From Thermoanaerobacter sp. A7A (GTDB lineage Bacteria > Bacillota > Thermoanaerobacteria > Thermoanaerobacterales > Thermoanaerobacteraceae): a stretch of 64,000 nucleotides of DNA. The position numbers and the translations under genes were made by a program. The notes beneath the pieces were generated by a model that saw nothing but the letters and a program-made list of their open reading frames with translations, was not told where the DNA came from and did not search any database. The stretch spans positions 1 through 64,000 of the forward strand of contig NZ_AVAF01000114.1 in the NCBI RefSeq assembly GCF_000445185.1, read 5' to 3'. The number at the start of each line of letters is the position of its first letter. Positions within the stretch are counted from its first letter, which is position 1. Shown piece after piece: positions 6,751-63,255 of the stretch.

Positions 6751-8016
6751 ATGGAATTAATTGAGAAACAATTAAACAACGGAATAAATTTGTACATAGA
6801 TACTACAGACAAATTTAAAACAGTGACAATTAATCTTTATATCCACAATCAATTAGGAAAAGAGGCTACAAAATACGCTTTGCTGCCTGCTGTTTTAAAA
6901 AGGGGTACTTCTAGTATTAAAACCTATAAAGAAATGGTGAAGTTTTTAGAAAACTTATACGGCACTACTATGGCTGTTTCTGTGTATAAAAAAGGAGAAA
7001 GGCACCTTCAACAATATAGATTGGAATTACCTCAAGAGGAGTACATAAAAGAGAATATTTTAGAAGAGGGAGTAAAATTTTTAAAAGAGTTAGTTTTCAA
7101 CCCTCTTACAGAAGGAAATGCTTTTAATAAAGATTATGTACTTCAAGAAAAAGAGATTCACAAAAATTTAATAGATTCAAGAATAAATGACAAAACCAAA
7201 TATGCGGTAGACCGTTGTTATGAAGAGATGTGTAAAGGGGAGCCTTTTGCTATATTCGAATTAGGCAAGAGTGAGGACTTAGAGGTTATTGATGAAAAAA
7301 ATCTTTACCACTATTATCAAAATTGTATTAATACTTTGCCGATAGATATATATGTTGTAGGAAATGTGGACCCTAGATATGTAGAAGAGGTTTTTACAAA
7401 ATATTTTTCTTTTCAAAGAGGACAGATACTAAATATTCCTTCCCCAAATATATATAAAGAGGTAAAGGAAGTAAAGTATGTGACAGAAAATTTAGAAGTA
7501 ACCCAGGGGAAGCTTACTCTTGGCTTTAGAACTAATGTGCCGGCTAACAGTGAGGAATATTTTCCTCTTTTGGTATACAGTGGTGTATTAGGAGGAGGAC
7601 CTTTTTCTAAACTTTTTATGAATGTGAGGGAAAAGGCAAGCCTTGCTTATTATGCTTATTCAAGGCTTGAGAGATTTAAAGGTTTAATGGTGGTAAGTTG
7701 CGGCATAGAGATAGAAAATTACAACAAAGCTCTTGATATAATACTTAAACAGTTAAAAGAAATTGAAGAAGGTAATATCTCAGATTATGAATTAGATTCC
7801 ACAATAAAAGCCTTAAAGACCTCTTTGAATGCAATGAAAGACAATGCTACTTCTAAATCTGACTACTATTTGTCACAAAAAATTGCAGGAGCAGATTTAA
7901 ATATAGAAGAATTTATTAAAAAAGTAGAAAAGGTGACAAAAGAGGACGTAGTGGAAGTTGCTAAAAAGGTTAAATTAGATACGGTGTATTTTATGACCGG
8001 CAAAAAGGAGGAATAA
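6751..8016 (+). CDS. M16 (pitrilysin-like) family peptidase, YmfF-like, lacking the canonical HxxEH motif
   Basis: M16 architecture adjacent to a catalytic M16 paralog; no HFLEH in its N-terminal domain. Confidence 0.8.
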   Translation: MELIEKQLNNGINLYIDTTDKFKTVTINLYIHNQLGKEATKYALLPAVLKRGTSSIKTYKEMVKFLENLYGTTMAVSVYKKGERHLQQYRLELPQEEYIKENILEEGVKFLKELVFNPLTEGNAFNKDYVLQEKEIHKNLIDSRINDKTKYAVDRCYEEMCKGEPFAIFELGKSEDLEVIDEKNLYHYYQNCINTLPIDIYVVGNVDPRYVEEVFTKYFSFQRGQILNIPSPNIYKEVKEVKYVTENLEVTQGKLTLGFRTNVPANSEEYFPLLVYSGVLGGGPFSKLFMNVREKASLAYYAYSRLERFKGLMVVSCGIEIENYNKALDIILKQLKEIEEGNISDYELDSTIKALKTSLNAMKDNATSKSDYYLSQKIAGADLNIEEFIKKVEKVTKEDVVEVAKKVKLDTVYFMTGKKEE

Positions 8017-8018
8017 TT

Positions 8019-9296
8019 ATGCAGCAGTTGTACAATGGGAGAATAGACGAAAAAATACTTTTACAAGAATTGGATAATGGCCTGAAAGTGTATATAATGC
8101 CGAAAAGAGGTTATACAAAGCAGTTTGCAATATTTGCTACCCATTTTGGTTCTAATGACAGTAAGTTTATCGCTCCAGGGGATACTAATGTAACGGAGGT
8201 ACCTGATGGGGTTGCACATTTTTTGGAACACAAAATGTTCGAAGAGGAAGAAGGTAGTATTTTTGAGCAGTTTTCAAAATTAGGGGCTTCAGCTAACGCT
8301 TACACTAATTTTACTACAACTGCTTATTTATTTGCGAGTACTGAAAACTTCTATGAAAATCTAAAACTTTTAGTAAAGTTTGTACAAAATCCTTATTTTA
8401 CAGATGAAAATGTGGAAAAAGAAAAGGGAATAATAGCTCAAGAAATAAGGATGTATCAAGATGACCCCAATTGGAAAGTTTATTTTAACGCATTAGAGGC
8501 TCTTTATCATGTACATCCAGTTAGAAAGGACATAGCTGGCACAATTGAATCAATTTCTCAGATAAATAAAGAAATTTTATATAAGTGTTATTACACATTT
8601 TATCATCCTGAAAATATGGTATTGTTTGCGGTAGGAGACATTGATATAGATAAAACTCTTGACATTATAAAAGAAAATATGAGACAAGATAAAAAACAAG
8701 GAAAAATAAAAAGGATATATCCTAAAGAGCCTTTAAGCGTTTATAAAAAAGAAGTTGTACAAGATATGCAAGTATCCATTCCTCTTTTTAATCTAGGTTT
8801 TAAAGATACAGATGTGGGTTTTGGGGGAAAGAAATTATTAAAGAAAAATTTAGAGATACAAATAGGTTTGGAAATGGCATTAGGCAGAAGTTCTGACTTG
8901 TATGAGAGGCTTTACAATGAAGGGCTTATTGACAGCACTTTTAGCTTTGATTACGGTGGAGAGATAGATTACGGTTATTCTATAATAGGAGGTCAATCTA
9001 AAGATCCTTTTAAAGTGAGAGATATCATTTTAAATGCAATAAATAATCTACAATTTTTAAAGGAAGAAGATTTTGAGAGAATAAAGAAAAAATACATAGG
9101 AAAATTTTTAAGAACATTTAATTCGGTCGATAGTATAGCTTACAGTTTTATAAACTTTTATATGAAAGAAATAAATTTACTGGATTATTTAGATGTGCTT
9201 TACAGTATAAGCTTTGAAGATGTTAGAGAAAGATTTCAAAATCATCTGAGAGAAGAGAATAGTGTACTTTCCGTTGTGAATCCTATAAAAAAATAA
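8019..9296 (+). CDS. M16 family zinc peptidase, YmfH-like
   Basis: GVAHFLEHKMFEEEEG zinc-binding motif. Confidence 0.9.
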   Translation: MQQLYNGRIDEKILLQELDNGLKVYIMPKRGYTKQFAIFATHFGSNDSKFIAPGDTNVTEVPDGVAHFLEHKMFEEEEGSIFEQFSKLGASANAYTNFTTTAYLFASTENFYENLKLLVKFVQNPYFTDENVEKEKGIIAQEIRMYQDDPNWKVYFNALEALYHVHPVRKDIAGTIESISQINKEILYKCYYTFYHPENMVLFAVGDIDIDKTLDIIKENMRQDKKQGKIKRIYPKEPLSVYKKEVVQDMQVSIPLFNLGFKDTDVGFGGKKLLKKNLEIQIGLEMALGRSSDLYERLYNEGLIDSTFSFDYGGEIDYGYSIIGGQSKDPFKVRDIILNAINNLQFLKEEDFERIKKKYIGKFLRTFNSVDSIAYSFINFYMKEINLLDYLDVLYSISFEDVRERFQNHLREENSVLSVVNPIKK

Positions 9297-9297
9297 A

Positions 9298-9326
9298 AAA
9301 ATCAGGCGCAAAGCCTGATTTTTTTA
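9298..9326 (+). terminator. Rho-independent terminator
   Basis: AAATCAGGC-gcaaa-GCCTGATTTTTTT. Confidence 0.85.
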
Positions 9327-9381
9327 TTTTTTTATAAAAATTTAGCAGGATTTTTTAAATTTATATAGAATAACATATTAA

Positions 9382-9416
9382 GTGGTGTAATGTGGTGGTA
9401 AGTGGGAGAATGTGAA
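9382..9416 (+). promoter_or_regulatory. Putative MraZ operator (tandem GTGGK repeats, 10-bp period)
   Basis: GTGGTGTAAT GTGGTGGTAA GTGGGAGAAT GTGAA immediately upstream of mraZ. Confidence 0.7.
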
Positions 9417-9436
9417 ATGAAAGTTTGGTGTTTTGT

Positions 9437-9868
9437 ATGTTGATGGGCCAATACGAACACACAATTGATGCAAAGGGAAGAGTCATAATTCCCGCAAAAT
9501 TCAGAGAAGAACTAGGGGAAAAGTTTGTATTGACTAAAGGTTTGGACAATTGTTTATTTGTATATTCCTTGGAGGAGTGGAAAAATATTGAGGCCAAACT
9601 TAAAACTTTGCCACTTACCAAAAAAGACGCAAGAGCATTTACGAGATTTTTCTTAGCTGGAGCTGTGGAATGTGAAATTGATAAACAGGGAAGAATACTT
9701 ATACCTGCTAATTTAAGAGAGCATGCCAAAATAGAAAAAGATGTTATATTTATTGGAGTTTCTACAAGGGTTGAGATTTGGAGTAAAGAGGTTTGGGAAG
9801 AATACTCTAACAATACAGATGTTTCTTTTGAAGAGATTGCTGAGCATCTTGACGACTTAAATATATAG
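9437..9868 (+). CDS. mraZ: Transcriptional regulator MraZ (approximate start)
   Basis: [21 protein letters not shown] and a second AbrB-like [14 protein letters not shown]. Confidence 0.95.
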
Positions 9869-9880
9869 GTGTGATAAAGA

Positions 9881-10807
9881 ATGGAATATAGCCATAAAAG
9901 TGTTTTGCTTAAGGAGACAATTGAATATTTAAATATAAAACCAGAGGGAATATATGTAGATGGTACTTTAGGTGGTGGAGGCCATTCTGAAGAAATATTA
10001 AAAAGGCTTACCACCGGAAAGTTAATTGCGATAGATAGAGATTTAGATGCGATAAAGGCTAGCAAAGAAAGGCTTAAAAATTACAAAAATGTAGAGTACA
10101 TAAATGATAATTTTAAAAATATAAAAGAGATACTTAAAAGTTTGAATATTGACAAGGTTGATGGCATCCTTTTGGATTTGGGGGTATCTTCTTATCAATT
10201 AGAAGAAGTTAAACGGGGTTTTTCTTATATGAAAGATGCTCCGATGGATATGAGAATGGACAAAAATTCACCTTTTTCTGCCTATGATGTGGTGAACAAG
10301 TATTCACAGCAAGAATTAGAAAGAGTGATAAGAGAATATGGAGAAGAGAAATGGGCATCACGTATTGCTAAATTTATTGTAAAAGAAAGAGAAAAAGGAG
10401 AAATAAAAACTACTTTTCAGTTAGTAGAGATTATAAAAAACGCTATTCCTGCCTCTGCCAGGAGAGAAGGACCACATCCAGCAAAAAGAACATTTCAAGC
10501 CATACGAATAGAAGTCAATGAAGAACTTAAAGGTTTAGATAAGGCGATTGAGGATATGGTAGAGGTATTACGGGGGAAAGGGCGCATTGCGATAATCACA
10601 TTTCACTCTTTGGAAGATAGAATTGTGAAGAATACTTTTAAAAAATTAGAAAATCCCTGCACTTGTCCACATAATATGCCTTGTACTTGTGGCAAAGAAC
10701 CTTTGATAAAAATCATCACAAAAAAACCGGTACTACCTTCCAAAGAGGAAATAGAGACAAATTCAAGGTCTCGCAGTGCAAAACTTAGAGTTGCAGAAAA
10801 ACTGTAA
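9881..10807 (+). CDS. rsmH: 16S rRNA m4C1402 methyltransferase RsmH
   Basis: [37 protein letters not shown]. Confidence 0.97.
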
Positions 10808-10835
10808 GTTCTAAAAGAAATGGAGGTAGAATAAA

Positions 10836-11279
10836 TTGATAGTAGCACAAAGAGAATATAATTACGAGTATCCCCCATATACCTCAGAAAAGAAAGAGCA
10901 AGTAAGAAAAACTAAAAAAAACAGGAAATTAAAGAATTTACTTTTGGTAGTTTTTATAAGTTCTCTAAGCATTTTGATACTTTACAGGTATACTGTAATT
11001 TATCAAAGGTCAATTGCTTTAGATAAAATGGAAAAACAAGTACAATATACAGAAAATTTAAATCAACAATTAAAAGCCCAAATTGCTTCTTTAAGCAATC
11101 CTGCTCGAATTGAAGAGATTGCAAAAGAAAAATTAGGAATGCAATTGCCAGAAGAAAATCAGATAGTCTATATAAATGTGGGAGAAAAGCCTAAAGTAGC
11201 TGAAGAGAAAAAAGGTGAAGAGAAATCACAAGATAGAAGTAACTTTTTTATGAGGATATTGGGGGTGTTGAATAGATAG
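10836..11279 (+). CDS. ftsL: FtsL-like cell division protein
   Basis: Single TM followed by coiled coil and PARIEEIAKEKLGMQLP; dcw position. Confidence 0.85.
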   Translation: MIVAQREYNYEYPPYTSEKKEQVRKTKKNRKLKNLLLVVFISSLSILILYRYTVIYQRSIALDKMEKQVQYTENLNQQLKAQIASLSNPARIEEIAKEKLGMQLPEENQIVYINVGEKPKVAEEKKGEEKSQDRSNFFMRILGVLNR

Positions 11280-11417
11280 GGGGGATAATAAATATATCCA
11301 ACCATATCTGTAAAGAGAAGAATTCTTTTTTTACTTTTTTTATCTTCTATAGTAGTTTTTGGACTTATACTTAGACTTTTTTGGATACAGGTTGTAAAAA
11401 GTGAAGAATATCAAAAG

Positions 11418-13352
11418 ATGGCACTTCCTCAATGGACTTTAGACGTATCTGTTAGCGACAAAAGGGGAAATATATTTGATAGAAATGGCAAAGTATTAGC
11501 AGAAAATATAAGTGTTATCCCCAAAGAAATACCTGATTCTCAAAGAGAAGCAGTAGCTGAAGCTTTAGCCCAAATATTAAATTTAGATAAAGGAAAAGTT
11601 CTTCAAAAGATTTCTAATAAAAACTTACAAGAAGTGTTAATTGCTAAACAAGTTGATGACGAAAAGGCAGCAGAGATAAGAAAGCTTAATATAGATGGAA
11701 TAATAATTTCTGAGGACATGAAAAGATTTTATCCAAATAATACTCTTGCATCTCATGTCTTGGGCTTTACTGGAATTGACAACCAAGGTTTAGATGGCAT
11801 TGAATTAGCATTTGACAACTTTTTAAGAGGTATTCCGGGAAGAATTTCTACTCCAATGGATGCTATAGGTAGAAAGATGGATGTGGGAGAGGAAGAGTAT
11901 TTTGAACCTCTTCCAGGTTATAACGTAGTGCTTACAATAGATGAAACTATTCAGCATTTTGCAGAAAAGGCTCTTAACAAAGCGATGGTTCATTCTAAGC
12001 CTTCAAAAGGAGCAGTAGCCATTGTTATGGACCCCAAAACAGGTGAAATATTGGCTTTGGCTAATAGACCAAATTTTAATCCTAATAATCCTTTTGAAGG
12101 ACCGCAGGAGGAATGGTATAAAGCTTGGCGAAATAAAGCTATTTCTGATTCTTATGAACCTGGTTCTGTTTTTAAGACAATTACTGCTTCTGCAGCTTTA
12201 GAAGAAAAACTTGTAGGTCTTAATGAACAGTTTTATTGTCCGGGCTATACTATAGTTTCTGGACATAGAATAAATTGCTGGGCTACCCATGGCAGTGAAA
12301 ATTTTGTTCAAGGTGTTCAAAATTCCTGCAACGCAGTTTTTGTGACGTTAGGACAAAGGCTAGGAGTAGAAAAACTCTATAAATACATACATGATTTTGG
12401 ATTTGGACAAAGGACAGGAATACTTCTTCCTGGTGAAGCTCCAGGTCTTGTATTGGCAGAAAGTAGTGTTGGGCCTGTTGAGTTAGCCACTAATTCTTTT
12501 GGGCAAGGTATTGCTGTGACGCCTCTTCAGATGATTACTGCTGTCTCCGCAATAGCCAATGGAGGAAAATTGATGCAACCTCTAATTGTGAAATCAATTG
12601 TAGATTCAAATGGAAAAGTAGTGAAGGAATTTAAACCAAAAGTAGTGAGGCAAGTCATTCCTGAACAGACCTCTTCTACAATGAGAGAAATACTAAAAAG
12701 TGTAGTGTCAGAGGGAACAGGCAAAGCAGGATATATTGAAGGATTTGATGTAGCTGGAAAGACTGGTACTACAGAAAAATATATGCCAGGCAAATATGTG
12801 GCATCTTTTATAGGTTTTGCACCAGCGGAGGATCCAAAAGTTATTGTGTTGGTGGTAATAGATGAGCCTAATAATCCGGAAACCCATTTTGGAAGCCAAT
12901 TGGCTGCACCTGTAGTAAAGAGCATTTTAGAAGATACCTTAAGATATTTGGAAGTACAGCCAAGAGGAATAGAAAAACCTGCATCGGTTGTGGTACCGGA
13001 TGTGAGGAATATGAAACTTTATGAAGCAGAAAACATTATTTTGTCGAATAAGCTTAATTTTATAATAGAAGGAAATGGAGATACCGTTTTTGACCAAATG
13101 CCTAAACCAGGAGCAATTGTAGAAGAAAACACACAAGTTATTTTGTACTTAAATGCTGAAAAAATACAAGAAGTAGTAGTTCCTGATTTAACTGGTAAGA
13201 GCGTAAAAGAAGCTACAGAAATTCTAAATTCTTTAGGACTTAAAATAAGAATAAAAGGCAGTGGTTTTGCTGTAAATCAAAGTCCGAAAGAAGGTACGAT
13301 TTTGAAAAAAGGTGAAACTGTAGAAGTGGAGTTTAGGCCTAAGGAAAATTAA
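11418..13352 (+). CDS. spoVD: Class B penicillin-binding protein with two PASTA domains (SpoVD/FtsI type); the reading frame continues upstream to about 11292 without a canonical start
   Basis: Transpeptidase motifs SYEPGSVFKTIT, KTGTTEK; C-terminal PASTA repeats VVVPDVRNM..., VVVPDLTGKSV... Confidence 0.9.
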   Translation: MALPQWTLDVSVSDKRGNIFDRNGKVLAENISVIPKEIPDSQREAVAEALAQILNLDKGKVLQKISNKNLQEVLIAKQVDDEKAAEIRKLNIDGIIISEDMKRFYPNNTLASHVLGFTGIDNQGLDGIELAFDNFLRGIPGRISTPMDAIGRKMDVGEEEYFEPLPGYNVVLTIDETIQHFAEKALNKAMVHSKPSKGAVAIVMDPKTGEILALANRPNFNPNNPFEGPQEEWYKAWRNKAISDSYEPGSVFKTITASAALEEKLVGLNEQFYCPGYTIVSGHRINCWATHGSENFVQGVQNSCNAVFVTLGQRLGVEKLYKYIHDFGFGQRTGILLPGEAPGLVLAESSVGPVELATNSFGQGIAVTPLQMITAVSAIANGGKLMQPLIVKSIVDSNGKVVKEFKPKVVRQVIPEQTSSTMREILKSVVSEGTGKAGYIEGFDVAGKTGTTEKYMPGKYVASFIGFAPAEDPKVIVLVVIDEPNNPETHFGSQLAAPVVKSILEDTLRYLEVQPRGIEKPASVVVPDVRNMKLYEAENIILSNKLNFIIEGNGDTVFDQMPKPGAIVEENTQVILYLNAEKIQEVVVPDLTGKSVKEATEILNSLGLKIRIKGSGFAVNQSPKEGTILKKGETVEVEFRPKEN

Positions 13353-47329: not shown

Positions 47330-49291
<1,962 letters not shown>

Positions 49292-51143: not shown

Positions 51144-51587
51144 TTGATGAAACTAGGGTATATAGACAATTTAGAAATGTTTTTACGAGAGATAAACCAC
51201 ATATTAAATTTATATACTCGAAGCTATCTCAACGAAAAAAATATAACGATGGCGAGGTTTTGGGTTATGAATAAGTTGTCGGCTGACAACCCAATAACCA
51301 TGAAAGAATTGCAAAGAAGGTTGCTGCTAGCTCCCGCTACTCTGACAGGACTTGTTGACAATCTTGTAAGTGATGGGCTCGTTGAAAGATGGCGAGACGA
51401 AACTGACAGGAGGCTTGTTTATCTGAAATTAACCCAAGAAGGTGATAAACTATTAAAAGAGATTTTACAATATCGCACATCAATACTCGCAAATATTTTG
51501 AAAAAAATTGAGGGACTTGACGTAGAACGGCTAAACAGGGATTTGAGGTTAATTTGGAATCATTTGAAAGAATGTGAGACTTGCTAA
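51144..51587 (+). CDS. MarR-family transcriptional regulator
   Basis: winged HTH MKELQRRLLLAPATLTGLVDNLVSDGLVERWRDETDRRLVYLKLT. Confidence 0.9.
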   Translation: MMKLGYIDNLEMFLREINHILNLYTRSYLNEKNITMARFWVMNKLSADNPITMKELQRRLLLAPATLTGLVDNLVSDGLVERWRDETDRRLVYLKLTQEGDKLLKEILQYRTSILANILKKIEGLDVERLNRDLRLIWNHLKECETC

Positions 51588-51613
51588 ATTTTAATTTGGA
51601 AGGAGGTGTTTGT

Positions 51614-52120
51614 ATGCCTTTTTCTGTTGAAGTTAAAAATCTAAGGAAGTTTTTTGGAAAGTATGAGGCAGTTGCAGGTATAAGTTTTAACATAAACAAA
51701 GGAGAGGTTTTTGGCTTATTGGGACCTAATGGAGCAGGAAAAACAACTACAATTCGTATGATAACTACGCTTTTGTCTCCGACATCAGGCGAAATCAAAA
51801 TAGAGGGAATAAATGTTATAAAAAATGGAGGTTATATTCGAAATTTAATAGGATATGTACCGCAAGCCTTATCAGCCGATTCAACTTTAACAGGGTATGA
51901 AAATCTTCTAATTGTTGCAAAATTATTGCGCTTACCTAAAAAAGAGAGAGAAGAAAGGATTAATCATATTCTTGACATATTAAATTTAAGTGAAGCAGCA
52001 AACAGGATTGTCAAAGAGTACTCTGGTGGTATGGTTAGAAAACTGGAAATCGGCCAGGCATTAATACATAAATCCTCTGAGTTATATTGTAGAACTTTTA
52101 AGAGGATATTTATTAAATAG
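51614..52120 (+). pseudogene. DrrA-like ABC exporter ATPase truncated after the signature motif by an internal deletion
   Basis: Walker A GLLGPNGAGKTTTIRMI and YSGGMVRKLEIGQALIHK present; no Walker B/DEPT; runs into another frame encoding a permease C-terminus. Confidence 0.85.
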
Positions 52121-53883: not shown

Positions 53884-55095
53884 CTATAATTGCAATGAAC
53901 TTGACTCTTTTAGACCCACTTTTAAGATTGTATGATTAAAAGTTAAATAACGAATAGGAGTTTCTTGATAAAAAACTACAGGCTTTTCCAGAAAATTATG
54001 CTTTTTATTAATAAGGTGTAAATTTTTTAATAAATTTTTTTTGTTTTCATATAGTTCTTCTTGTTTGCAGATGGTAAGAGATGTTAAAACCGCTGGAGCT
54101 GTAAGAAAACCGATATAACGGAGTAATTTTGAAAAAGCAAGCTGATAAAATCGGTATGGATAAGAATCAGAAAAATAGTAACTGGAAAAATTAAAAATAG
54201 GAATTATGCCCTGCACATTTTCAGGAAGGCGGTATTTAAGGCTGGCAAGTAAAGGTTGCACTGACGAGGCGCTAATGAAACTAAAAGGTGGAGATAATTC
54301 GCTGACTTCTAAAGAATTCTGCACTTGAAAAAGTTTAAATGTAGAACCGACTTTAAAAAGAGCTAAAGAATAACGGTAACCAAATAAAACGGCAGCACCT
54401 CGGGCTATTTGTAACAAAGGAGCAAATTCGTAAATTTTACCGCAAGTTTGTGGTAAAAAATCTTCGGTTAAGCAGACTGCTTCGTTTTCAACCCAATATA
54501 TTCCTGGGGGGTAAGGAGCAAAAAAATCTCTAAGTTGCTTAAGATAAGGATATACTGTAACCATAAAATTATCAGCTATTAGCAAAGCTTTTTCTCGTTC
54601 ATAAAAGCCAAGCTGGGGATAATCCTGAGATTTTAAGATTGTTGCCGAAGCGAGTTTTTTAAGTATACGAATAGCTTTGTCTTCTTTTTCAGGGTAGACT
54701 AGACCAAAAGGCGCAATGATGGAGATTACATTGGCTTTTTTAATCTGCTCTTTATTTTCTTCTAATTTTTGTAAAAGTTTTTCTGGGGTTACTTGAAAGA
54801 TTGTTACTAGTTTTTGTAAATTTTGGGATTGGGTAAAAAAAGCACTAAATTGCTCTGGTACTAGGCGAAGATGAAAGATTGGCTTAATATCACTTTTTGC
54901 TGAAGAAGAAAGAGGTGGAGTAAAATAGACTTTAATTACATCTTTTCTAGATAAGCCTAGTATGGAAAGGCAGTGCTCTAATTCATCTAAAAAAGTCTGC
55001 CAAGAAAATTTTCCTTCATAAAGAAGGTACTTACCTGAGCCAGCGATAAGAGTTCCAGATTGACCATTCAAAAAAATTCCAAGTGTAAGTTTCAA
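53884..55095 (-). CDS. Highly divergent HyuA-like (hydantoinase/oxoprolinase A fold) protein lacking nucleotide-binding motifs
   Basis: Co-linear by eye with 60756..62306: ENEAVCLT vs QNDGTLMS, APLLQIARGAAVLFG vs CGPTNSIRGAAFLS, SLALFKVGSTFKLF vs ALVLDVGGTTSDIG. Confidence 0.65.
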   Translation of the reverse strand: MKLTLGIFLNGQSGTLIAGSGKYLLYEGKFSWQTFLDELEHCLSILGLSRKDVIKVYFTPPLSSSAKSDIKPIFHLRLVPEQFSAFFTQSQNLQKLVTIFQVTPEKLLQKLEENKEQIKKANVISIIAPFGLVYPEKEDKAIRILKKLASATILKSQDYPQLGFYEREKALLIADNFMVTVYPYLKQLRDFFAPYPPGIYWVENEAVCLTEDFLPQTCGKIYEFAPLLQIARGAAVLFGYRYSLALFKVGSTFKLFQVQNSLEVSELSPPFSFISASSVQPLLASLKYRLPENVQGIIPIFNFSSYYFSDSYPYRFYQLAFSKLLRYIGFLTAPAVLTSLTICKQEELYENKKNLLKNLHLINKKHNFLEKPVVFYQETPIRYLTFNHTILKVGLKESSSLQL

Positions 55096-56201
55096 GAAAA
55101 TACCTCCTTTTTATGGTAGTAGTCCCAATATAGCTTTTCCAGCGGTACATAAATAGTTCGATAGCCAAAACATTGAGGGCCAACGACATCTAGAGCTTTG
55201 CTGATTCTGAGTCGAAGCGGTGCTGGAAGGCCCAGAAGTGCCAGCTGTTGTCCTTCATAAATTTCGTTGTTGTTTACTGGTTTAAGTTTATTTAAATCAA
55301 TTGCAGAAATTAAATCAGGCACACTAGCAACCATATTACCGTTTTTAAAAGCGAGCAGATTTTCATATTGAAAAAGAAGTTGTAATTTTTCACCTTTTGG
55401 CGAAATTAATGTTGCAGCTTTCCATTTAGTAATTTCATATGTGGAGATGTTTGTTACGGTACCTTGGAAAATTTCCACTACTGGCCCGTAGAAAGAGTTA
55501 GAAGTTACTTCTAAAAGCAAGCTAAACAGTTCACGATAATTATCAGCTTGTAGAAAGCATTCACCTATTTCTCGAGCAAAAGTTAACGTGCCTGGAAGAA
55601 GGACTCTTTTTAGCACAGAACCAGGATAAGGAAAACCAGCAAAATAACCTACTCCTCCCTGCTGGGAAATAATCTGGCGAGTATTCAATTCTAAAAGGAA
55701 GGTATCTTGCTTATCAAGAAACAAATGCAAATTATAATTGCTGTCAATTAACACTAAAGGAGTAACAGTTAAATTTTCAAGATGATAGGTGGTCATTTGC
55801 AATTCGGGAAAAGCTCGCCCCATAGCATCACCATCAGTAACTGGTAAGCCTGTTTGAAGCGCAGTTAAGAGTGGGTAAAAAATATTAACCCCTGCTCCTT
55901 CAACGATTGAGATCCCCTTAAACTTAGCACCAGTATGTTTTTCTAACTCCTCAATAATAATACGTGCTTCCATTCCCGAAGGTAGGCTTTCTTCACTTAA
56001 TTCCGGTGAGCCTAGAAGACCTACGCCGCAAAAAAAATTGTTTTCTGGCAATTCATCAAGGGTTAGTAATGGAATAGAACGGTTTTGTAAAGCTTTATAC
56101 AGTACAGATGCCAAAAGTTCACTTTTCCCGCCACCACCCGAACCGAGGAAGATACTGCCATACCAAAGTGGTTCAATCCAATCAATGGTAATTTCTTGCA
56201 T
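55092..56201 (-). CDS. DUF917 family (S-methyl thiohydantoin desulfurase-like) protein, paralog 2
   Basis: YGSIFLGSGGGGKSELL, GLPVTDGDAMGRAFPELQMTTYHL. Confidence 0.85.
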   Translation of the reverse strand: MQEITIDWIEPLWYGSIFLGSGGGGKSELLASVLYKALQNRSIPLLTLDELPENNFFCGVGLLGSPELSEESLPSGMEARIIIEELEKHTGAKFKGISIVEGAGVNIFYPLLTALQTGLPVTDGDAMGRAFPELQMTTYHLENLTVTPLVLIDSNYNLHLFLDKQDTFLLELNTRQIISQQGGVGYFAGFPYPGSVLKRVLLPGTLTFAREIGECFLQADNYRELFSLLLEVTSNSFYGPVVEIFQGTVTNISTYEITKWKAATLISPKGEKLQLLFQYENLLAFKNGNMVASVPDLISAIDLNKLKPVNNNEIYEGQQLALLGLPAPLRLRISKALDVVGPQCFGYRTIYVPLEKLYWDYYHKKEVFS

Positions 56202-56209
56202 AGTTACAC

Positions 56210-57790
56210 CTACCTTAGATGGTATTTTCTAAGCCAACGATAGAGAGTTGCCAGACTAATACCTAACTCTTGGGCAATTAACTTTTTGGACTGGGTAGAA
56301 TTACCGTATTTAGCTAATAGAATTTCTAACTGATCTTTTAATTGATCGACCTGGATAATTGGATGGGTGGTTTTAACTTCACCAAACTGGGATTTACTAG
56401 AGGAAAAACCGTTTTGTAAGTACTTTGGTAGATAATGCAGAATAATTTTATCACCTTTACAAATAGAGACGGCGTAAGTAACTACGTTTTTTAATTCTCG
56501 TATATTTCCTGGCCAATTATAATTCTGAAGTATTTGAATAGCTTCGGGGCTAAAGACTTTAAATGGCTTATCTTGTTCAAGACAAACATTTTTTAAATAA
56601 AAATCCAAAAGCAGAGGTATATCATCTCGACGCTCACGTAGTGGTGGTATGAAAACTGGAAAAACATTTAAGCGGAAGAATAGGTCTTCTCTGAACAGTT
56701 TAGCATCAATTAATTCTTTTAAATCTTTATTAGTTGCCGCAATAATTCTTACATCAATTGGACGGGAAACAGTAGCTCCAATTCTTTCTACTTGTCGGTT
56801 CTCCAAAACCCGTAAAAGTTTTGCTTGTAATTGTAGAGGCATGTCACCAATTTCATCAAGAAAAATTGTTCCACCATTAGCAAGTTCAAATTTACCAGGC
56901 TTGCCGCCACGACGAGCACCTGTAAATGAGCCGTCTTCGTAGCCGAAAAGTTCGCTTTCAAGAAGGTTATCGGGAATTGCAGCACAGTTTATTGCAATAA
57001 AAGGATGGTTTTTCCGAGGACTTAAGTAGTGAATATAGCGGGCAAAGAGTTCTTTACCAGTGCCACTTTCACCTTGAAGTAGTACTGTGCTGTCGGTTAC
57101 TGCGATTTGTCGTACAAGGTCTTTTATTTCTAAAAAACGAGGGTTTTTACCTGGAATAGTAAAAAAAGAATCGTCGTGAAAAAGGAATTTGTTTTCTTCC
57201 TGCTTGGTTGGTTCTGTTTTCCAGACTATCGAACCCGTTGTTATTCCATCTTTTGTAAAAATACGATAATAAAAGTTTCCCCATCTGGTTTTTATAAAAC
57301 CTTCTGGCTCACCTGTCTGACTTACCTTTTCCCAAAGGGTAAAGGTAGAAAGTTGGATAGGCGAATGAGTTTGACTTAAAATTAGTTGTCCTTTATTGTC
57401 AAAAAGGAAAAACTCTATATTAAATTGATTTGCCAAAAATTGCAATGCTTCCGCGATTAACAAATTATCGGATTTTTGTTCAGGAATATATAACATTTCC
57501 AATACAGTCAAAAGAAATTTAACAAGGAATGCGGGTGTTAGCTTTAAATCTCTATCAATGTTTTTAGGCAATGCAACCACAAAAATATCTTCTTCTAGTT
57601 TAAAGGAAAGTATTAGCTCATAAGGGCAAGCAGTGCCTTCCGGGCAAGTGGGCGTACAGGGTGGTGCCCAAACACGATAGCCTGTTTTCGGAAGTGAAAT
57701 AAATGAGAAACATTTTTCCGGAAGATTGGTCACAACGCCAAAAGTTTCTTTAAGAGAATCAATAAAAGAATCAATAAAAGCTTTTCTCAT
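56210..57790 (-). CDS. Sigma-54-dependent transcriptional activator
   Basis: AAA+ core LLQGESGTGKELFARYIH, ELFGYEDGSFTGARRGG, LFLDEIGDMPLQLQAKLLRVLE; Fis-type HTH LIAQELGISLATLYRWLRKY. Confidence 0.93.
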   Translation of the reverse strand: MRKAFIDSFIDSLKETFGVVTNLPEKCFSFISLPKTGYRVWAPPCTPTCPEGTACPYELILSFKLEEDIFVVALPKNIDRDLKLTPAFLVKFLLTVLEMLYIPEQKSDNLLIAEALQFLANQFNIEFFLFDNKGQLILSQTHSPIQLSTFTLWEKVSQTGEPEGFIKTRWGNFYYRIFTKDGITTGSIVWKTEPTKQEENKFLFHDDSFFTIPGKNPRFLEIKDLVRQIAVTDSTVLLQGESGTGKELFARYIHYLSPRKNHPFIAINCAAIPDNLLESELFGYEDGSFTGARRGGKPGKFELANGGTIFLDEIGDMPLQLQAKLLRVLENRQVERIGATVSRPIDVRIIAATNKDLKELIDAKLFREDLFFRLNVFPVFIPPLRERRDDIPLLLDFYLKNVCLEQDKPFKVFSPEAIQILQNYNWPGNIRELKNVVTYAVSICKGDKIILHYLPKYLQNGFSSSKSQFGEVKTTHPIIQVDQLKDQLEILLAKYGNSTQSKKLIAQELGISLATLYRWLRKYHLR

Positions 57791-57830
57791 AAATTTTATC
57801 ACCACTTAAAATGAAAAATTTTAATAGCCA

Positions 57831-58146: not shown

Positions 58147-58163
58147 TTGGCATGATTTTTGCT
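58147..58163 (+). promoter_or_regulatory. Sigma-54 (-24/-12) promoter for the NCS1 permease
   Basis: TTGGCATGATTTTTGCT; TGGCAT-N5-TTGC spacing matches the consensus TGGCAC-N5-TTGC. Confidence 0.85.
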
Positions 58164-58232: not shown

Positions 58233-59552
58233 ATGGCTTTTAAGACTGCTGATGACTATTCTTTAAGTCGTGTTCCATTAGATGCACGACGTCCTATGTG
58301 GGAGGTTTTCATGATTCGTTTTGGCAGTGTGGTTTGTTTGCCTTTACTTATGACTGGTGCCACTATAGGCTATGGCATGACAATGAAAGATGTAATTATT
58401 GCTACTTTATTGGGTGTTACAATTATGGAAATTGTCAGTTTTTTAACTGGGGTAGCTGGAGCTTTAGAAGGAATGTCTACTAGTTTTCTTTCTCGCTGGG
58501 CAGGCTTTGGTCAACTAGGTTCGAGTCTTATTGGACTTGTAATTTCAATTACGGCTACGGGTTGGTTTGGTATTCAAAATTCTGTTTTTGCTGAGGGACT
58601 TTATAGTGCTTTTAGGGGTAAGGTTAATATTCAGTTATTAATGCTTATAAGTGGTATTGCAATTACATTAATTGTAGTTTATGGTTATAAAATGCTTAGC
58701 TATACAGCAAATATTGCTGTTCCTGCTTTTATAGCCGGAGTATTGTGGGCTACATTTAAAATGTTAGGTAACTACAATATGAGCGAAATTCTTTCATCTC
58801 TCCCTCCGGGTCCGCATCTTACTATTGGTGTTGCTGCAACTATGATAGCGGGTGGCTTTATGGTAGGTTCGGTTATAACGCCTGATCTGAGTAGGTTTAA
58901 CAGAAATGCCAAAGATGTTTTTTGGATGACTTTACTAAGTCTACTTTTAGGAGAAATATTACTAAACTTTATAGGAGCCACGATGGCACATGCAGCAAGT
59001 ACAAGCGATGTTGTTAAGATAATGTATAATCTAGGTGGTTGGTTTGCTGCATTGTTGGTTATTTTTTCAACTATAAAAATTAATGATTTAAATCTTTATG
59101 CTGCTTCATTGGGTGTTACTAATTTTTTAGATGCTGCCTTTAATGTAAAAGTTAACCGAGGAATAGTTACATTGATTATTGGAATAATAGGAACAGCACT
59201 TTCTATGATGGGAATATTAGAGAAATTTACAAGTTTTTTGATGATATTAGGAATTGCAATACCACCTATTGCAGGAATCATGGTTGTTGATTATTTTATC
59301 TTAAGGCGTTTCAAAAAAGAACTTGAGGAAAGTCGTGCAGAGGGCAAATTACCGGAGATTGTGGAGCATATCAATCCTATTGCATTATTAGCTTGGTTAA
59401 TTGGAGCTTTAATAGGTTATTATGTTCAGTGGGGTATTCCAGCATTAAATTCTTTAGTGGCTGCTGGTTTAGCACACTGGTTAATATCGAAAATGTGGGC
59501 TATAACCACAGGCCGTAAAATGATTCGTTTTGTAAAAGGTGAGAATGCATGA
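58233..59552 (+). CDS. NCS1-family (cytosine/purine/allantoin/hydantoin-type) permease
   Basis: CodB-like 12-TM protein; SLSRVPLDARRPMWEVFMIRFGSVVCLPLLMTGATIGYGMT; GSVITPDLSRFNRNAKDVF. Confidence 0.88.
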   Translation: MAFKTADDYSLSRVPLDARRPMWEVFMIRFGSVVCLPLLMTGATIGYGMTMKDVIIATLLGVTIMEIVSFLTGVAGALEGMSTSFLSRWAGFGQLGSSLIGLVISITATGWFGIQNSVFAEGLYSAFRGKVNIQLLMLISGIAITLIVVYGYKMLSYTANIAVPAFIAGVLWATFKMLGNYNMSEILSSLPPGPHLTIGVAATMIAGGFMVGSVITPDLSRFNRNAKDVFWMTLLSLLLGEILLNFIGATMAHAASTSDVVKIMYNLGGWFAALLVIFSTIKINDLNLYAASLGVTNFLDAAFNVKVNRGIVTLIIGIIGTALSMMGILEKFTSFLMILGIAIPPIAGIMVVDYFILRRFKKELEESRAEGKLPEIVEHINPIALLAWLIGALIGYYVQWGIPALNSLVAAGLAHWLISKMWAITTGRKMIRFVKGENA

Positions 59553-59635: not shown

Positions 59636-60739
59636 ATGAAAAAGGATATAGAAAAAATTAAGAAAATCGATGTGCAAGTAGTCGAAGACATTGCGGTTGG
59701 AGCTGCTCTTCTCGGAACTGGGGGAGGAGGAGACCCTTATGTAGGCAAACTCATGGCTATTCAAGCTCTACAAAAAAATGGTCCAGTAGAACTTATTGAT
59801 GTGGAGAATATACCCGATGATGCATTAGTTGTTCCTGTAGCAATGATGGGAGCGCCGACAGTATTAGTAGAAAAAGTACCATCAGGAAAAGAGATTTTCA
59901 AGGCTTTCGATAATCTTCAAAGTTTTCTTGGGAAGGAAGTATATGCGGTTCTTCCCATTGAAGCCGGAGGAGTTAATTCAATGATACCTATTATGGTTGC
60001 AGCTGAGAAGAAACTACCACTGGTAGACGTAGATGGCATGGGAAGGGCTTTCCCGGAGCTGCAAATGGTGACATATCACCTTTATGGAGTTTCTGCAACA
60101 CCTATGGTTTTAGCAGATGAAAAAGGTAATTCTATACTTTTACACACAATCAGTAATTTCTGGACGGAAAGTCTTGCTAGAAATGCTACGGTAGTTATGG
60201 GTGGATCAGTTATGATAGCAATTTATCCGATGACTGGAAAAGATTTAAAACGAGCAGGAATAAGAAATGTTATTTCTTATTCGGTTCAAATTGGAAGAGT
60301 GATACGCGAAGCCCGCAAGAAAGGTGAAGATCCTATAGAGGCACTTTTAGAAGTGACAGGTGGATACATGCTTTTCAAAGGCAAAATTTCTGATGTGCAA
60401 AGGCGTACTACTGGTGGATTTGTCCGCGGGGAAGCTCATATTGATGGAATTGACCAATATAAAGGGGAAGCCATGACTATTAATTTCCAAAATGAAAATT
60501 TAATAGCTCGCCGCAATGGAAAAGTTGTAGCTACCGTACCTGACTTGATTTGTACCGTTGACGCCCATACAGCTTTACCTATAACCACCGAAGGATTACG
60601 TTATGGACAGAGAGTATTTATTATAGGAATTCCGTGTGATAAGAAGTGGAGAACTGAAAAAGGCATTGAAACTGTTGGTCCGCGTTACTTTGGATATGAT
60701 GTTGATTATATACCTTTAGAAGAACTCAATAGAGGTTAA
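59636..60739 (+). CDS. DUF917 family (S-methyl thiohydantoin desulfurase-like) protein, paralog 1
   Basis: VVEDIAVGAALLGTGGGGDPYVGKLMA, LPLVDVDGMGRAFPELQMVTYHL. Confidence 0.88.
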   Translation: MKKDIEKIKKIDVQVVEDIAVGAALLGTGGGGDPYVGKLMAIQALQKNGPVELIDVENIPDDALVVPVAMMGAPTVLVEKVPSGKEIFKAFDNLQSFLGKEVYAVLPIEAGGVNSMIPIMVAAEKKLPLVDVDGMGRAFPELQMVTYHLYGVSATPMVLADEKGNSILLHTISNFWTESLARNATVVMGGSVMIAIYPMTGKDLKRAGIRNVISYSVQIGRVIREARKKGEDPIEALLEVTGGYMLFKGKISDVQRRTTGGFVRGEAHIDGIDQYKGEAMTINFQNENLIARRNGKVVATVPDLICTVDAHTALPITTEGLRYGQRVFIIGIPCDKKWRTEKGIETVGPRYFGYDVDYIPLEELNRG

Positions 60740-60755: not shown

Positions 60756-62306
60756 ATGGAATATCGTATTGGAATTGATGTTGGTGGGACCAATACTGAC
60801 GCAGTCTTAGTAAATGAAAATATGGAACTAATAGAGAGTGTTAAAGTACCGACTACTAAAGATGTTTCAAGCGGTATATTTGAAGCATTGAATAAGGTAT
60901 TAGATAAAAGTAACATAGATCGCAAAAAGATAAAATATGCAATGTTAGGAACAACCCATGCTACAAATGCCATTGCTGAGCGCAAAAGGCTTTGTAAGAC
61001 TGCAATTATTCGAATTGGTAAACCCGCAACCGAAGCAATTGCTCCGCTAGTTGGTTGGCCTAAGGATTTGGTTGAGGCGGTAGGGAATCATTATTACCTA
61101 ATTGCCGGTGGAAATGAATTTGATGGCAGAGAAATAAGTCCACTAGATGAAGATGAGCTTGGTAAAATCGCCAAGGAAATTAAAGGCAAAGTAGAAAGTG
61201 TTGCGGTAATATCTGTATTTTCTCCGGTTAGCAATAAACATGAATTAAGAGCAAAAGAAATATTGCAAGAAGTTCTTGGGGAAATACCAATATCTCTATC
61301 TCATGAAATTGGTTCCCTTGGCCTACTTGAGAGGGAAAATGCTACTGTTTTAAACGCCGCTTTAGTTGAAGTTGCTCGGACAACTGCTAATAGTTTTAAA
61401 GATGCTTTGAAACGAGAAGGTCTTACAGAGGCTACCGTATATCTTTGTCAAAACGATGGAACTTTAATGTCGATTGATTATGCGATGCGTTATCCTATCT
61501 TAACAATTGCTTGTGGTCCTACAAACAGTATTCGTGGAGCAGCTTTTCTTAGTAAGCTAGAAAATGCATTAGTGCTTGACGTTGGTGGAACTACAAGTGA
61601 CATTGGAGTTATTTCTCAGGGATTTCCTAGAGAATCTTCCATTGCAGTAGAAATTGGCGGGGTGCGGACAAACTTTAGAATGCCTGACTTAATTTCACTC
61701 GCACTTGGCGGTGGTACAATTATTCGTGAAGAGAACGGCGAAATTAAAGTAGGTCCTGAAAGTGTAGGGTATAGAATTACCGAAGAGGCTTTGGTATTTG
61801 GAGGGAAAACCATAACTGCTACTGACATTGCAGTTCGTTTAGGATTGGCAGAAGTAGGTTCTAAGGAAAAAGTAAAAGATATACCTTTAGAATTTGCTAA
61901 GCGAGCACATGCCAAAATGCAAGAAATGATTAATGAAGCCATTGACAAAATGAAAACCAGTAAAGAACCACAACCTCTTGTATTGGTTGGCGGAGGAAGT
62001 ATTATTGTTGCCGATGAAGTACACGGTGTAAATGAAATAGTAAGGCCGAAAAATTTTGGAGTAGCCAATGCTTTAGGTGCTGCTATAGCTCAGGTTAGTG
62101 GTGAAATAGATCGCATTTATTCTTTGAGTGATATGAGCAGAGAGGCAGCATTAAACGATGCAAAGCAACGGGCAATAAATGAAGCAATAAAAGCAGGGGC
62201 TAATCCTGAATCAGTGGATGTTGTTTATGTTGAAGATATACCTTTAGCTTATCTTCCCGGAAATGCAGTTAGAATTAGAGTTAAAGCAGCAGGAAATTTA
62301 ATTTAA
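60756..62306 (+). CDS. HyuA-type hydantoinase/oxoprolinase (ASKHA ATPase fold)
   Basis: YRIGIDVGGTNTDAVLV, MLGTTHATNAIAERKRL, ALVLDVGGTTSDIGVI. Confidence 0.92.
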   Translation: MEYRIGIDVGGTNTDAVLVNENMELIESVKVPTTKDVSSGIFEALNKVLDKSNIDRKKIKYAMLGTTHATNAIAERKRLCKTAIIRIGKPATEAIAPLVGWPKDLVEAVGNHYYLIAGGNEFDGREISPLDEDELGKIAKEIKGKVESVAVISVFSPVSNKHELRAKEILQEVLGEIPISLSHEIGSLGLLERENATVLNAALVEVARTTANSFKDALKREGLTEATVYLCQNDGTLMSIDYAMRYPILTIACGPTNSIRGAAFLSKLENALVLDVGGTTSDIGVISQGFPRESSIAVEIGGVRTNFRMPDLISLALGGGTIIREENGEIKVGPESVGYRITEEALVFGGKTITATDIAVRLGLAEVGSKEKVKDIPLEFAKRAHAKMQEMINEAIDKMKTSKEPQPLVLVGGGSIIVADEVHGVNEIVRPKNFGVANALGAAIAQVSGEIDRIYSLSDMSREAALNDAKQRAINEAIKAGANPESVDVVYVEDIPLAYLPGNAVRIRVKAAGNLI

Positions 62307-62369: not shown

Positions 62370-62496
62370 CCAAATCTGGGGAGGCATTTACCTTACGAGT
62401 AGTAGGCGAGCACGACATGAACTAGTGTCTGTGGAGGATGCGATAGCATTCTATGAAGCAGGGAGCCACTGCCTAATATAGATGGAAGGCAATTCA
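62370..62496 (+). mobile_element. Right-end remnant of an IS200/IS605-type TnpB element: last TnpB codons plus omega-RNA-like scaffold
   Basis: GTGGAGGATGCGATAGCATTCTATGAAGCAGGGAGCCACTGCC...GGAAGGCAATTCAT resembles the GAAGCAGG(A/G)A...hairpin...TTCA right end; in-frame tail ...AFYEAGSHCLI-stop. Confidence 0.65.
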
Positions 62497-62526
62497 TTTA
62501 ATTTTAAAAAACAAGGAGGGTTACTT

Positions 62527-63255
62527 ATGAAACTAAAAATTATTGTGCCAATTACTTCAGAGGTATTTAATGAGGAAGTTAAAAAGGAAATCAAACACTA
62601 TGTAGATCCTGATGATTATGTTGATGTTGAAAATTTGAATTATGGTCCGGCGTCCATCGAGTGTGAATATGATGAAGCTATGGCTGTACCAGATATCTTA
62701 AATAAGGTAAAGAAAGCTCAAGAAGAAGGATTTGAGGGTATAGTTATTGATTGTTTTGGGGATCCGGGGGTACATGCTGCACGGGAACTTGTTGATATAC
62801 CCGTTTGCGGTGGTTTTGAACCTTCTATGCAAATTGCTTTAGGACTTGGTCAAAACATTGGTGCTGTTACAGTTTTGCCCAATGTTATTCCAATGCTACA
62901 CGATTTAGTTGCCAAGATGGGAATAGAAAAGCGAATAAAAGCACTACGATATGTTAACATTCCAGTATTAGATTTGGGCGATAAGAAAAAATTAGAAGAT
63001 GCCTTATTCAAGGAAAGCTTAGATGCAATTCAAAAAGAAAATGTTCATGTTATTGTATTAGGTTGTACTGGCATGATGGGAGTGGCTAATAATCTAATGA
63101 ACAGGTTAAAAGAAGCTGGTTATGATGTTCCAGTAATAGACCCGGCCTTTGCTGCGGTAAGAATGGTTAAAACTTATATACGCATGGGATTGAAGCATAG
63201 CCGGTTGACTTACATGACTCCTCCTGCAAAACCATATACTTGGTGGGGAAAATAG
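62527..63255 (+). CDS. Aspartate/glutamate/hydantoin racemase family protein
   Basis: MKLKIIVPITSEVFNEEVKKE; IDCFGDPGVHAARELVDIPVCG; IVLGCTGMMGVANNL (two catalytic Cys contexts). Confidence 0.88.
   Translation: MKLKIIVPITSEVFNEEVKKEIKHYVDPDDYVDVENLNYGPASIECEYDEAMAVPDILNKVKKAQEEGFEGIVIDCFGDPGVHAARELVDIPVCGGFEPSMQIALGLGQNIGAVTVLPNVIPMLHDLVAKMGIEKRIKALRYVNIPVLDLGDKKKLEDALFKESLDAIQKENVHVIVLGCTGMMGVANNLMNRLKEAGYDVPVIDPAFAAVRMVKTYIRMGLKHSRLTYMTPPAKPYTWWGK

Follow-up and report, generated by a model that had tools for sequence, protein, structure and literature searches.

A diverged HyuA paralogue without ATP phosphate-binding motifs is encoded with a DUF917 protein beside a sigma-54 activator in Thermoanaerobacter

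Results

Organization of the locus

The 64,000-nucleotide stretch of the Thermoanaerobacter sp. A7A contig analysed here (the window) contains a minus-strand cassette, comprising a sigma-54-dependent activator, a diverged DUF917 paralogue that we call DUF917reg and a 403-aa protein that we call X, which is divergent from a plus-strand operon encoding a permease, a catabolic DUF917 protein (DUF917cat), HyuA and a racemase. The features of the locus are as follows.

53884-55095, minus strand: X, HyuA-derived putative pseudo-ATPase subunit; 403 aa, TTG start, GGAGG ribosome site
55092-56201, minus strand: DUF917reg, diverged DUF917 (S-Me-THD) paralogue that keeps the DGDAMGRAFPELQM core
56210-57805, minus strand: sigma-54-dependent activator; AAA+, GESGTGKE, GSFTGA and a C-terminal helix-turn-helix
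57831-57876: five TGA(G/T)AA repeats at exact 10-bp spacing, between the promoter and the activator gene
58147-58163, plus strand: -24/-12 (sigma-54) promoter TTGGCATGATTTTTGCT, in front of the permease gene
58233-59552, plus strand: NCS1 / cytosine-permease-type transporter
59636-60739, plus strand: DUF917cat, catabolic DUF917 (S-Me-THD) protein
60756-62306, plus strand: HyuA, with phosphate 1 (DVGGTNT) and phosphate 2 (DVGGTTSD) motifs intact
62482-63255, plus strand: Asp/Glu/hydantoin racemase

Elsewhere in the window, an amino-acid-permease-like gene (47857-49291) appears to be divided between two overlapping ORFs, 304 aa and 185 aa long, a pattern that a frameshift would leave. An ABC-transporter ATPase ORF (51581-52120) is just 179 aa long, looks truncated and is directly followed by an MFS transporter.

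The TTG start codon of X lies shortly downstream of its GGAGG ribosome site and overlaps the TGA stop codon of DUF917reg in a TTGA tetranucleotide, an arrangement that points to translational coupling of the two genes and that is conserved among loci. An initial sequence-only reading had placed X beside a sigma-54 activator and a DUF917 protein with a DxMGRAFPELQM motif, and both neighbors are indeed where it put them: the protein encoded at 55092-56201 carries DAMGRAFPELQM, with the core motif retained in all DUF917reg members, and matches the PF06032 and PF20906 profiles with 147.6 and 136.2 bits, respectively, against a cut-off of 27. The activator scores 235 bits against PF00158 and combines an AAA+ domain and a GAFTGA-type loop with an adjoining -24/-12 promoter, as is characteristic of sigma-54 enhancer-binding proteins; its Cys-containing N-terminal domain has no Pfam match. 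We also considered whether either DUF917 protein is an S-methyl thiohydantoin desulfurase (NF058532), which belongs to the same DUF917 / S-Me-THD family (PF06032, PF20906; PDB 2o3i), and rejected this assignment for both since DUF917reg and DUF917cat reach only 46 and 124 bits, far below the 450-bit equivalog cut-off.

None of 500 shuffled sequences yielded a promoter as good as that at 58147, and a -24/-12 promoter is kept wherever the divergent locus is intact, equalled in each case by either 0 or 1 of the 500 shuffled sequences. Arrays related to the repeats, with two to five copies spaced 9-11 bp apart, occur in eight of ten other loci, that of Parageobacillus included, no array being equalled in more than 4 of 300 shuffles. 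These repeats probably constitute the upstream binding site of the activator, as judged from their sequence and position; their layout, with one repeat per helical turn, is unusual for a site of this kind. HyuA-type genes (COG0145) have been listed among predominantly sigma-54-regulated genes in Bacilli (PMC12316311), and beyond this remark our literature search returned nothing on the activator, DUF917 and X cassette.

X is a diverged paralogue of HyuA

Neither X nor its relatives are recognized by existing family profiles. Pfam and NCBIfam profiles have no match to X, the ten X orthologues described below lack a HyuA-family match (PF05378, PF01968) even at an E-value of 10, a search of PDB sequences with an X profile returned a chance match only, X as a query detects no relatives among plasmid sequences, and a scan of genome contigs found two loci only (T. 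thermocopriae and Thermosediminibacter). Nonetheless, pairwise and profile-profile comparisons agree with the initial proposal that X aligns with the HyuA encoded at 60756. BLASTP aligns the two proteins over 188 residues at 23% identity (E = 6e-4), and profile-profile comparison gives E = 1.5e-4, which improves to 6e-5 when the HyuA alignment is deepened. The likeness is strongest in a middle block (HyuA residues about 126-275) and in a C-terminal block. In our alignment, the 'LGF.REK' block of X (residues 162-169) matches HyuA 'LGLLEREN' and the C-terminal 'IRYL' block matches 'LAYLP', and these two blocks appear to be better evidence of kinship than the RGAA motif, which the sequence-only reading had described as surviving. 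RGAA is kept in all ten X proteins, as RGCA or RGCS in two of them, and is nonetheless poor evidence because it is aligned across a gap and is missing from the intermediates described below.

Structure prediction supports the same relationship. An AlphaFold model built from the ten X sequences alone has modest confidence (pLDDT 60.6), and when it was compared with the PDB using Foldseek, a check that had been proposed at the outset, the top seven hits, with E-values of 1e-9 to 3e-7, were all seven HyuA-family chains, from acetophenone carboxylase, N-methylhydantoinase, acetone carboxylase and caprolactamase; other ASKHA-fold proteins ranked below them. A second model, for which intermediates and HyuA rows were added to the alignment, reached a pLDDT of 84.8 and a pTM of 0.83 and returned the identical seven chains at the top over its full length; because HyuA rows were in its alignment, this agreement is not independent, as that of the first model is. 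Together, the fold, the profile comparisons, the bridging sequences and the pattern of conservation support the view of X as a diverged HyuA paralogue, of common descent with HyuA and sharing its overall fold.

Loss of the ATP site

We next compared the nucleotide-binding motifs of HyuA and X. At phosphate 1, HyuA 8-DVGGTNTD-15 corresponds to X 8-FLNGQSGT-15, and the aspartate position is occupied by F8 in X and by F or L in all ten orthologues, which bears out the loss proposed from the sequence alone. At phosphate 2, HyuA 275-DVGGTTSD-282 corresponds to X 247-FKVGSTFK-254; here too the loss is real in all ten orthologues, while the KVGSTFKL originally given is out of register by one residue. 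The aspartate position is F247 in X and F throughout the ten, which have FK.G..F in common. None of the ten thus has either the DxGGTxTD or the DVGGT form of the HyuA motifs, and sequence, fold, intermediates and conservation all support the initial description of X as a HyuA paralogue in which neither phosphate-binding motif remains. In the caprolactamase CapA, Asp11 of the phosphate 1 motif and Asp295 of the phosphate 2 motif are positioned for Mg-mediated binding of ATP phosphates, and mutation of D11 or D295 reduces product formation (PMC8453981). Both of these aspartates are gone from X.

The loss extends beyond the phosphate motifs. About 60 of the 81 residues of HyuA 310-390 are deleted in X, leaving 22-24, and the region of the adenosine motif (GxxPGP) falls within this deletion; only the segment, and not the motif itself, can be compared because the HyuA encoded here, which is short and intact, is also without a literal GxxPGP. 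The GGGS loop of HyuA is likewise gone, and X reads NFS or NFT. In addition, X proteins have acquired conserved motifs of their own (LALFK.G..F, a PFGLVY-type block and WVEN.AV), and therefore X is not merely decayed and is constrained to something different from ATP chemistry. Overall, these changes strongly imply that X would be non-catalytic for ATP chemistry.

X is maintained by selection and evolves at the pace of the activator

Full-length X orthologues were found in ten Bacillota genomes, namely that of the window, three from the same genus and six from other families, with identities to the window protein that range from 98% down to 43% and with an uninterrupted frame in each. No other protein of the locus evolves as fast as X: among the most distant orthologues it retains 43-50% identity, versus 80-84% for HyuA. 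In well-diverged pairs, the dN/dS of X is 0.16-0.25, close to that of the activator (0.14-0.23), and that of DUF917reg is 0.04-0.10, nearly as slow as the enzymes DUF917cat and HyuA, for which values of 0.03-0.08 were obtained where computable, several being lost to saturated dS and the pair formed by the window and G005 being too close for the estimate. X is therefore under purifying selection.

Conserved linkage of the cassette

When 399 Bacillota genomes were scanned with a DUF917reg profile, 11 matches scored at least 590 bits and the next one 348; each of the 11 members of this clade has a sigma-54 activator and an X-type gene as its neighbors. The main cassette clade is fully supported in the DUF917 tree (100/100). 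At the ten orthologue loci, X is always 3' of DUF917reg and the activator, and the cassette is divergent from the permease and DUF917cat genes, with HyuA and often the racemase present wherever the sequence extends that far. The activators do not share one conserved sensor domain, a possibility that we ruled out from their N-terminal parts, which are Cys-containing in the X group and in loci L070, L071 and L073, PAS in Parageobacillus and Cys-containing plus PAS in G023; the site of sensing is therefore not decided by these domains.

Permease, DUF917 and HyuA genes also occur without the cassette in other Bacillota (G057, G364, G385, G157 and G023) and are PucR-linked in Enterococcus and Listeria. 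A -24/-12 promoter is absent from the loci of G057, G364, G385, G157, Enterococcus and Listeria, and G023 (L075) has a sigma-54 activator and promoter. In Thermoanaerobacter relatives that lack the operon, DUF917 genes are absent altogether. The permeases beside the same cassette vary: some are at least 60% identical to that at 58233-59552 and others only about 30% (L006 3206-4468, L029 5027-6301 and L030 5494-6768), in loci whose enzymes are still about 80-94% identical, which points to a transporter swap and perhaps to a different substrate. In G011 (L007, 2776-7967), the activator, DUF917reg and DUF917cat are each split into several ORFs, reflecting either decay or draft-assembly errors, and X and HyuA are intact.

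Intermediates between HyuA and X

The same cassette is found at four further Bacillota loci (L069, L070, L071 and L073), whose X-type proteins reach 36-78 bits with a HyuA profile and 11.5-23 bits with an X profile. One of these loci, L069 of G146 (7473-12647), is decaying: X is frame-broken, the activator lacks its N-terminal part, the permease and DUF917cat genes are gone and a good -24/-12 promoter is absent.

A less eroded relative is encoded on plasmid pGEOTH01 of Parageobacillus thermoglucosidasius. WP_013878203 is a 463-aa protein that is clearly still HyuA-like (432 bits to the HyuA profile) and, unlike X, keeps both phosphate aspartates in partly worn motifs (DVGETNTD and DVGGSSVH). 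Like X, it has the activator, DUF917 and HyuA-like gene order, and it lacks profile positions 315-385, the same segment that is missing from X and the other intermediates. The three genes of this locus (L083, 4347-8478) all point in one direction, with a -24/-12 promoter and repeats between the activator and the DUF917 gene, which places the pair inside the induced operon. The Parageobacillus DUF917 protein forms a long branch, and its common origin with the cassette pair, recovered as a single origin in 75% of bootstrap trees, is therefore unsure; the pair may represent a separate duplication, as judged from the tree.

Discussion

The data above indicate that DUF917reg and X are a worn copy of the DUF917cat-HyuA enzyme, which most likely would serve the activator as a ligand sensor or co-regulator. 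The initial suggestion that X is a pseudoenzyme is well supported, and its further suggestion of a sensor or co-regulator is what we consider the best reading because the linkage to sigma-54 activators is strict, X evolves at an activator-like rate and the cassette is missing from operons under other control. The presence of worn enzyme copies beside an activator suggests that they now sense rather than catalyse. For X itself, we lean, if only slightly, towards an ATPase-dead HyuA relic that is paired with DUF917reg and acts as a ligand-sensing partner of the co-transcribed activator. We infer that X would pair with DUF917reg in the way that HyuA presumably does with DUF917cat, and that this pair would retain the binding of a ring compound without ATP-driven chemistry. 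The activator would bind the phased repeats and drive the promoter at 58147, from which the permease, DUF917cat, HyuA and the racemase would be transcribed for uptake and breakdown of a ring-shaped nitrogen compound. Our guess as to direction is that DUF917reg-X restrains the activator until the imported compound binds. As for how this arrangement arose, we tentatively propose, with slightly less than even confidence, that a two-subunit DUF917-HyuA enzyme was duplicated and that the copy became the sensor module of the activator that controls the parent enzyme, its ATP subunit having been disabled in steps of which living relatives still bear traces.

Several observations run counter to a sensor role, the strongest being the good preservation of DUF917reg, which keeps its core motif in all members and evolves slowly, as an active enzyme would, and the arrangement in Parageobacillus, where the pair sits with catabolic genes under the -24/-12 promoter and not with the activator; furthermore, G023 has an activator and promoter yet no cassette. 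Because the Parageobacillus pair lies within a sigma-54-driven operon, an accessory-enzyme role has to be weighed, in which DUF917reg would be active in a further pathway step, for example on a second ring type, X would be its structural, ATP-independent subunit and adjacency to the activator would be incidental. We regard this as rather unlikely, given that the pair is absent from the related catabolic operons that we read in other Bacillota, that its clade occurs only beside sigma-54 activators within the 399 genomes and that the rate of X is that of the activator and not of the enzymes.

It is also conceivable that X binds DUF917cat or HyuA, or mixes with them, to tune their assembly or activity, for which its HyuA-like middle and C-terminal blocks could provide shared partner surfaces; this would leave both the dedicated DUF917reg and the tie of its clade to sigma-54 activators unexplained, and we consider it improbable. 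Least credible of all is that X is a functionless, slowly decaying pseudogene. Such a fate would be in keeping with its rapid evolution and with its breakage in G146, where the whole locus is decaying, and it is at odds with ten open frames, a dN/dS near 0.2, the new conserved motifs LALFK.G..F and WVEN.AV and the conserved coupling to DUF917reg.

Pseudoenzymes that act as regulators are a known kind of protein, and some sigma-54 activators are kept in check by a partner protein with a gene of its own, as in the NifL-NifA, PspA-PspF and HrpV-HrpS systems. As in these systems, the cassette joins an activator gene to a dedicated partner, here by genetic linkage only, but its partners would be a degenerate metabolic enzyme pair. 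With the HyuA / OplA / CapA family (PF05378 and PF01968; PDB 6yra, 9h03, 5l9w and 5svb), X shares the ASKHA-type fold, the order of blocks along the chain and a partner encoded next door; it differs in its lack of a Pfam match, of the phosphate aspartates, of GGGS and of about 60 residues around 310-390, and in having a DUF917 protein rather than a HyuB-type subunit as its partner.

In this cassette, both subunits of one enzyme seem to have been copied beside the activator of that same enzyme, with intermediates preserved from the partly eroded protein of Parageobacillus to one in Thermoanaerobacter that Pfam does not recognize. A protein family without Pfam annotation is now tied to HyuA, and the uncharacterized DUF917 pathway gains a promoter and a probable activator site, which offer a route to its substrate. 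The cassette thus provides a concrete test case for how a metabolic enzyme turns into a sensor and, should the Parageobacillus pair have been duplicated separately, such recruitment would have occurred twice.
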